The notes below the pieces were generated by a model, which saw nothing but the letters and a program-made list of their open reading frames with translations, was not told the origin of the DNA and ran no database searches. Both the position numbers and the translations under genes were made by a program. From Sandarakinorhabdus sp. AAP62 (GTDB taxonomy: Bacteria; Pseudomonadota; Alphaproteobacteria; Sphingomonadales; Sphingomonadaceae), in contig NZ_ANFY01000007.1 of NCBI RefSeq assembly GCF_000331225.1, forward strand, positions 1 to 64,000: a stretch of 64,000 bases of DNA, read 5' to 3'. How positions within the stretch are numbered: position 1 is the first letter of the stretch; the number at the start of each line of letters is the position of its first letter. Shown here piece after piece: positions 9,868-11,361 of the stretch.

Positions 9868-11361
9868 TCAGGATGCAATCCACGCAACTGGCCAAACCTG
9901 AGGCGCCGAAGCACGCAGCAAGGCGGCGGCTTCGTCGATATGGCTGCCAGATGTGGCAACATCATCAATCAGGATCACTGGCTGCTGGACCCGCTGCTGC
10001 AACTTCATCGCCGGTCGGCGGATGTTACGGCGGGGATGCGAGGTGCCGCGAGGGGTTGCAATCGGGGCGAAGGCTTCGACCATGGCGATTCCCAACTGGG
10101 CAGCCACCGCAGCTGCCAGGCGGCATGCCAGACAATTAGGACCGGAACTGCCGCACGGGACAGGCACCACCACACAGGAATCAACCATGCCGTAAACCGA
10201 GCGGATAGCGCCGGCCATTTCGGCAGCAACTGTTGTGACAAAAGCATCTGTTGGTTCAGTTTTCAGCGCGCGCAATGCGGCGATTTGATGGGGCTTGATT
10301 GCAGTCCGCCACTTGCGCAAGCCAATATAGTTTGTCTCATAGTGTCGATAGAGACGTTGAGCACTGATCAATGTTTCCAGCAGGAACTGGCTTACCGGAC
10401 CCACAGCGTCGGTTCCGGCCGGGGCTGCGACAGGCGGACCATCCCGAACCATGAAAACGCCTTGCTGCTCAGCCGCGGCAATGGCTTTGGCGCCGTCGTG
10501 GAACGCCAGAACGGCGAATTTGCCCAGTTCAGGGAACGTAAACGGGAACACGTCGAGCAATTGCCTGTCCCACTCAAGCTGCGCTACGGCCAACCATTGT
10601 TTGGGGATATCCGTCGCAAAGCCATCCCGAATTGATTGCCGCAATGCCGGCGTCAACCAGGGTCCAATCAAGGTCTGACCCGTGTGAAGGGTATCGCTGC
10701 CCAGTGTGGCGACCTTGCGGGCGAATGATTCTGAAAGTGCAACCAGTCTGAACTGGTCATCGATAATGCCCACGGGGATGTTGATCCGGGACAAGCCGGC
10801 CTGCAACACAGCCTTGATCACCCCGCTCGCATCGATTGTAACCGCAGCACGCTCGATTTGGCTGCTCAACCAGATCAGATCGCTGATCATGTCAGCATAT
10901 CCACGCAGGATGCTCAGTACAGAGCCGCGCATCTCCCGCAGTTTCGTATCAGCACACGAAAGCGCGAGCACGCCATCATCATCCGGGAGTTGTTGCAGGC
11001 GAACCGGCACATTGGCGCCATAACGCCAGGATTTGGCGATCGGCACGATACTCAGCGCCGTCCATCCCGTCTGTTTCCGCAGATCGTCAACTTCTACTTC
11101 CCGGGCAAACAACGATGGCGCGAGCAATGTGGTTGGCACCCTATCCGTGTAGTGGGTCAGCGGAAATCCGTGAGTTGCGATGAACTCGTAGGTTTGGCCA
11201 TATCTGATGCCCAGTACCATGAAGGGGATGCCGGTGGCATCTGCCGCACTCCTGACGATTCGATCGAGAATAGGCCGAATTGGTCCTGTTCGAAGGCTGG
11301 CTGCAAGTGACGCACTGCTCGTTCCGGCAGCACCCTGTTGAGGACCTTGTGAAAAGAACAT
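9868..11361 (-). CDS. GAF-like sensor fused to a ComF-type phosphoribosyltransferase domain
   Basis: In this 497-residue cytoplasmic protein, residues about 25-160 resemble a GAF sensor (ILDRIVRSAADATGIPF, FIATHGFPLTHYTDRVP, FAREVEVDDL, GALALSCAD-like strand). Residues about 165-280 resemble a PAS-like segment (VGIIDDQFRLVALSESFARK). The C-terminal 150 residues form a type I phosphoribosyltransferase domain with CVVVPVPCG, CLACRLAAAVAAQLG and the PRPP-binding loop ILIDDVATSGSHID near residues 463-476, as in ComF. This suggests a sensor that uses or binds PRPP. The role is unknown and no partner is evident; the gene stands alone between a 424-base gap and the oxygenase gene. Confidence 0.6.
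   Translation of the reverse strand: MFFSQGPQQGAAGTSSASLAASLRTGPIRPILDRIVRSAADATGIPFMVLGIRYGQTYEFIATHGFPLTHYTDRVPTTLLAPSLFAREVEVDDLRKQTGWTALSIVPIAKSWRYGANVPVRLQQLPDDDGVLALSCADTKLREMRGSVLSILRGYADMISDLIWLSSQIERAAVTIDASGVIKAVLQAGLSRINIPVGIIDDQFRLVALSESFARKVATLGSDTLHTGQTLIGPWLTPALRQSIRDGFATDIPKQWLAVAQLEWDRQLLDVFPFTFPELGKFAVLAFHDGAKAIAAAEQQGVFMVRDGPPVAAPAGTDAVGPVSQFLLETLISAQRLYRHYETNYIGLRKWRTAIKPHQIAALRALKTEPTDAFVTTVAAEMAGAIRSVYGMVDSCVVVPVPCGSSGPNCLACRLAAAVAAQLGIAMVEAFAPIATPRGTSHPRRNIRRPAMKLQQRVQQPVILIDDVATSGSHIDEAAALLRASAPQVWPVAWIAS

Follow-up and report, generated by a model that had tools for sequence, protein, structure and literature searches.

A ComF-like phosphoribosyltransferase with a putative N-terminal GAF domain in Sandarakinorhabdus sp. 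AAP62, and its relatives in phages

The role of the ComF-like phosphoribosyltransferase (PRT) is described as open for competence ComFC, RqlH and phage PRTs in the accessible sections of PMC9005727, PMC4670107 and PMC5512222. ShosT is presented in excerpts of a review (PMC12593503) as both a PRT and a pyrophosphatase that disturbs purine metabolism. For PRTs of phages, the available text of Iyer et al. (PMC5512222) proposes that they make or sense a nucleotide. Pairing of the YpsA branch of SLOG proteins with a PRTase is already in print, mentioned in the portion of PMC6459960 at hand. Here we analyzed a 64,000-nucleotide stretch of Sandarakinorhabdus sp. AAP62 (contig NZ_ANFY01000007.1, positions 1–64 000; hereafter the window), which encodes a PRT-containing protein that a preliminary description, made from the sequence alone, had read as a sensor fused to a ComF-type PRT. 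We hypothesize, with a probability of roughly 0.4, that this protein is a one-protein signalling enzyme, a PRT gated by a GAF domain, in which the fused GAF substitutes for the SLOG partner seen with phage relatives.

The gene (positions 9868–11 361, minus strand) is genuine and encodes 497 residues comprising a GAF domain, a linker and a ComF-like PRT, with GAF and PRT as the two supported domains and homologues in four other genomes. On the same strand, the preceding gene, for a TonB receptor, stops 424 bases short of it, and the gene that follows is convergent; from this arrangement it is probably a solitary gene. The five neighbours tested encode a beta-helix protein, a 2OG-Fe(II) oxygenase, the TonB receptor, a GntR regulator and an isochorismatase-type protein; none is a competence gene, in line with the absence of such genes noted earlier. 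Among the Pfam, NCBIfam, PHROGs and PADLOC models that matched the protein, none covers the full architecture. No description of a GAF- or PAS-fused ComF-like PRT was met among the papers listed by the literature searches, outside which most subscription papers lie.

Taken by itself, the sequence of the window protein gives a weak PRT signal in Pfam (PF00156, E 0.2), and NCBIfam returned GntX (E 0.0011) and comF (E 0.0058). Structurally, the fold is nonetheless clear. From residue 321 onwards, the AlphaFold model has pLDDT values of 90–97 in 15 of 18 ten-residue blocks and 68–81 in the other three. Together with Foldseek and VIA alignments to Helicobacter pylori ComF and a family alignment, it delimits a ComF-like PRT domain with hood at residues 323–497 (9871–10 395, minus strand). 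The best PDB match was H. pylori ComF (7P0H; Foldseek E 2.5e-5), which VIA-align scored at Z 13.4 over 178 residues, the next entry reaching 10.6. Further structural matches included PurR (Z 10.3), ShosT (9.9) and many other PRTs (Z 9–10.6). The match extends across the domain, as for a type I phosphoribosyltransferase fold. In its nearest relative, encoded in genome G399, the PRT is 52% identical.

Translation confirmed the PRPP-binding loop that had been reported near the end of the protein, IDDVATSGSH, at residues 465–474 (9940–9969, minus strand); residues 462–474 read VILIDDVATSGSH. The PRPP loop of type I phosphoribosyltransferases ends in Thr or Ser, whereas the window protein has His474 at the ComF Thr position. 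This column is Thr in 7/7 ComF and likewise in 11/11 further ComF. All 17 family members compared, a count that leaves out the phage MW202482 with its Thr at the loop end, share Arg349, Trp351, Ser441-His442-Pro443, Asp466, Asp467, Thr470, Gly472, His474 and Trp494; a further five phage members carry His at the last of these loop positions as well. The Ser-His-Pro motif lies in the flexible-loop region (10 033–10 041, minus strand). An arginine near the PPi loop is found in 7/7 ComF and 9/17 family members, and its position is Gly407 in the window protein. Three cysteines (residues 403, 410 and 413; PCGSSGPNCLAC) occur in the PPi-loop region of the window protein and of its G399 relative and could conceivably form a metal or redox site. 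In the accessible text of PMC9005727, H. pylori ComFC lost nucleotide binding when Thr165 was mutated; we aligned this residue with the His474 column via the shared DD....G motif. Ordinary PRPP binding by the window protein is questionable because His474 replaces Thr, and His474 and Gly407 may alter or abolish PRPP chemistry. The altered chemistry suggested by His474 and the missing arginine would suit a non-catalytic two-input sensor whose PRT gauges PRPP or nucleotides, like PurR and PyrR, and acts by binding nucleic acid or protein; structural matches to PurR and to ComF, which binds single-stranded DNA according to the same partial text (PMC9005727), point the same way. Pfam found no nucleic-acid-binding domain in the protein, however, and 17/17 members retain the acidic pair and Thr470; we regard a sensor of this kind as doubtful.

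In the N-terminal part, GAF- and PAS-like segments had been described. BLASTP aligned window residues 31–163 with residues 29–161 of the G399 protein (E 3e-5, 23% identity). Through its N-terminus, the G399 protein retrieves seven further proteins from 80 genomes of the genus to which G399 belongs, and the two of these tested by Pfam are both GAF-PAS-histidine kinases. A two-row profile (window plus G399) matched the GAF of all seven kinases at an hhalign probability of 97%, compared with at most 1.9% for its column shuffles (n = 30) and, for the window sequence alone, 13% (residues 1–172) or 2.4% (residues 1–322), in single comparisons whose E-values are uncalibrated. Pfam gave no GAF match for the window sequence alone, and the G399 protein scored 18.2 bits (E 0.0037) against a gathering score of 22.4. 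A GAF domain is therefore supported by profile comparison at the N-terminus of two sequences, the window protein (residues 23–166; 10 864–11 295, minus strand) and its G399 relative, when the two are taken together. Searching PDB sequences with the N-terminal profile gave caspase matches at chance level only (E 1.7–2). The middle segment (residues 173–322; 10 396–10 845, minus strand) had been predicted to be PAS-like, a reading that is unsupported, though not disproved, for about residues 173–310, which had no Pfam PAS match, an hhalign probability of about 1% and a single-sequence model too poor to use (pLDDT 36). The GAF-PAS kinases belong to the same bacterial family and have a related N-terminal GAF, but the window protein differs from them in carrying a PRT output instead of a kinase. 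Pfam detected no DNA-binding or kinase domain in the chain, and the PRT is thus the likely output.

A tree built from 25 sequences separated the PRT family from seven ComF at 100/99 support, with the window and G399 proteins as sisters (98/97) and MW202482 on a long branch of unsure placement. On this phylogeny, the PRT is a distinct, unnamed family outside ComF. With ComF/ComFC (7P0H; TIGR00201), the window protein has in common the fold with hood, the acidic pair and the Thr and Gly of the PRPP loop; it differs in its R-x-W and S-H-P motifs, the His-for-Thr replacement, the N-terminal GAF and its clade, and Pfam found no N-terminal zinc ribbon at E values up to 10, although it did so in a ComF control (L003). 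Against TIGR00201 it scored 16.6 bits, the curated cut-off being 233.55, a value that the true ComF of the five genomes with PRT fusions also fail to reach (60–105 bits); the latter were named ComF by motif, length and tree. The window protein is not the competence ComF, because its genome has a separate ComF-like gene, as do all five fusion genomes. Contig 10 of this 3.13-Mb genome carries the best ComF and the sole DprA match, and the window gene is on contig 7. The label ComF-type, and with it the idea of a sensor fused to such a PRT, accordingly stood as to the fold and the GAF, fell as to the ComF lineage and found no support as to the PAS part. A second ComF that handles incoming single-stranded DNA in natural transformation would account for ComF being the best structural match, yet the separate ComF in 5/5 fusion genomes, the different clade, the lack of a Pfam zinc-ribbon match and the non-competence neighbours make this very improbable.

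A PRT of this family with an N-terminal extension was found in five sphingomonad genomes: that of the window and four further genomes (G399, G052, G173 and G582). The extension is a GAF domain in the window protein and the G399 relative; no GAF signal was obtained for G582, G052 and G173, in which the N-termini had no Pfam match and, compared with the GAFs of the kinases, hhalign probabilities no higher than 0.4%. The tree neither supports nor contradicts one origin for the five fusions. Scanning the taxonomic family matched 7 of 397 genomes, comprising four with this PRT family (own genome included), two with ComF (L003 by Pfam, L004 by sequence and tree) and a seventh match, G302 (L007). Matches were obtained in 5/396 genomes of the order, 3/385 of the class (G813, L054, among them), 3/24 of the genus (two being the same ComF-level matches) and 3/298 of a later draw. 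This PRT family is rare. By eye and with simple gene calls, no operon was shared among the fusion loci, and downstream genes were common only to the same-genus genomes G052 and G173. The single window protein as query against genome contigs found no relative, whereas an alignment query did; the whole protein found no plasmid record and one phage record. When the genome collection was scanned by pattern, 21 loci emerged, of which 10 belong to this PRT family (Methylobacteriaceae, Chelatococcus, Stella and Nitratireductor, plus the G052 and G173 fusions again); the other 11, with CxxC pairs and a loop ending in Thr, were taken as true ComF. Outside the fusions, the PRT mostly occurs as a solo protein and is frequently phage-borne: 14 members have 193–229 residues, and four phage members read 261–333. 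Solo PRT genes lay ~300 bases from prs (PRPP synthetase), on the opposite strand, in 3/3 Nitratireductor loci (L020, L021 and L022), and two stood in tandem on a Methylobacteriaceae MAG contig (L013, 4236–4868 and 5069–5728, plus strand). One phage PRT (L072, 62–889, plus strand) has an N-terminal stretch that is weakly ParB-like (phrog_620, E 0.0043).

Terminase homologues occurred in 9 of 17 non-fusion loci (L016, L019, L034, L035, L036, L070, L072, L073 and L074). The PRT adjoins an integrase at L036, with TerL on the same contig; at the Chelatococcus locus (L016), genes for a GpA terminase and a portal protein are close to it. An Azospirillum plasmid with a family member carries terminase, integrase, RepA, ParB and Gam genes, and phage MW202482 has an annotated terminase, an annotated 'prtase' and a MuF-like gene. 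These PRTs resemble the solo and polyvalent PRTases of phages and conjugative elements described by Iyer et al. (2017) in being phage-borne and ComF-like, a likeness drawn from the paper's text rather than from alignment; a text search of the available PMC5512222 gave no mention of a GAF or PAS domain.

In 5/17 non-fusion loci (L012, L016, L019, L071 and L073), the PRT is directly adjoined by a small SLOG/DprA-like gene; the DNA covered at the other 12 contains none. A SLOG query against viral contigs returned 54 loci. All 17 with a SLOG identity of at least 49% have the PRT next to the SLOG, either overlapping it or no more than 25 bp away, a count that is partly circular and overstates independence because the query SLOGs were chosen for adjoining this PRT; 15 of these 17 contigs were not used in building the query, and L091 and L094 are the contigs of L071 and L073. 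At identities of 43% or less, 0/37 loci had a PRT match in the fetched flanks. The two genes form a phage module, a PRT with a SLOG/DprA-like gene of ~117–125 residues, either overlapping on the same strand or tail-to-tail (L081–L097, L016, L019, L071, L073 and L012). Against Pfam DprA, one of the SLOGs scored E 8.8e-7, slightly below the cut-off. The loop of the 17 SLOG-paired PRTs ends in His in 15 (pattern matching for 13, visual inspection for L083 and L092) and in Thr in L096 and L097, whose PRT profile scores are weak (1.9e-9 and 2e-4). In L097 (1652–2593, plus strand), SLOG and a divergent PRT are fused in one 313-residue frame with the SLOG N-terminal, as is the GAF in the window protein. 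The pair is like the SLOG (YpsA)–PRTase pair in the consulted part of PMC6459960, whose PRT family may be different; the window protein, by contrast, has a fused GAF and no SLOG nearby. The SLOG profile detected no partner near the five fusions, in the window or in the fetched surroundings of the other four. Remaining SLOG matches in the fusion genomes had E values of 0.002 or weaker, two of them inside ordinary DprA genes; a G052 match lies on contig 10 (L080), and each genome has one DprA match, as in ordinary genomes.

The phage PRT and SLOG pairs resemble, in a smaller form, the PRT and DprA-like pairs of ShosTA and PsyrTA (RqlHI), which have the PRT domain in common with the window protein and, with its phage relatives, also the adjoining SLOG/DprA-like gene. 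PADLOC scored the window PRT at 4e-7 for PsyrT and 2.1e-4 for ShosT, and two phage SLOGs matched PsyrA and ShosA, with scores of 2.1e-7 and 8.5e-6. A ShosT or PsyrT identity of the window PRT was rejected, since two true ComF match the same toxin models better (1e-11), which marks its toxin-model matches as generic; this comparison covers the PRT scores only. The window gene further differs from ShosTA and PsyrTA in having no helicase, and neither it nor the four other fusions has an adjacent DprA-like antitoxin gene. These matches, and the purine disturbance ascribed to ShosT in the review excerpts (PMC12593503), would fit a stress or anti-phage effector akin in action to ShosT or RqlH, whose GAF-triggered PRT disturbs nucleotide pools or DNA until growth stops. 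With ComF closer to the toxin models, no antitoxin-like gene nearby and only the ordinary single DprA match per genome, we judge such an effector decidedly unlikely.

The window gene's GC3 of 0.61 is the sixth lowest among 36 long ORFs in the window, ranked on length-greedy ORFs that include false ones; its low GC3 and rarity are as in acquired genes. Both that value and the scattered occurrence would also be expected of a recently acquired phage remnant without cellular function. This is scarcely credible given the open frame, the identity to the G399 PRT, the intact motifs and the selection seen in another fusion pair: G052 and G173 have a dN/dS of 0.15 overall, 0.24 in the N-terminal part and 0.08 in the PRT, at a dS of 1.86, near saturation, which suggests that the fused form is maintained by purifying selection in these two genomes. 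For the window and G399 pair, saturation makes dN/dS uninformative. A fuller scenario, in which sphingomonads captured a phage-type PRT under a kinase-like GAF as a one-component, ligand-triggered PRPP or purine effector (growth arrest, dormancy or phage resistance), seems to us unlikely.

For the GAF-gated enzyme that we favor, the N-terminal GAF would bind a small ligand, and the ligand-bound GAF would switch the C-terminal PRT. The PRT would use PRPP or a nucleotide, either altering the nucleotide pool or marking an acceptor. Because the window protein has the PRT but no SLOG nearby, its GAF occupying the position that the SLOG has in L097, we infer that regulation is most likely provided in cis by the fused GAF, in place of the SLOG partner missing from the sphingomonad fusions. 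An output of the purine or nucleotide kind, after the proposals for ShosT and phage PRTs, is the most economical guess. The natural GAF-PRT fusion and the phage SLOG-PRT fusion are single proteins for assaying the PRT with or without its regulator. The SLOG pairing ties a phage gene family that PHROGs leaves undescribed to the PRT and DprA-like theme of ShosTA and PsyrTA.
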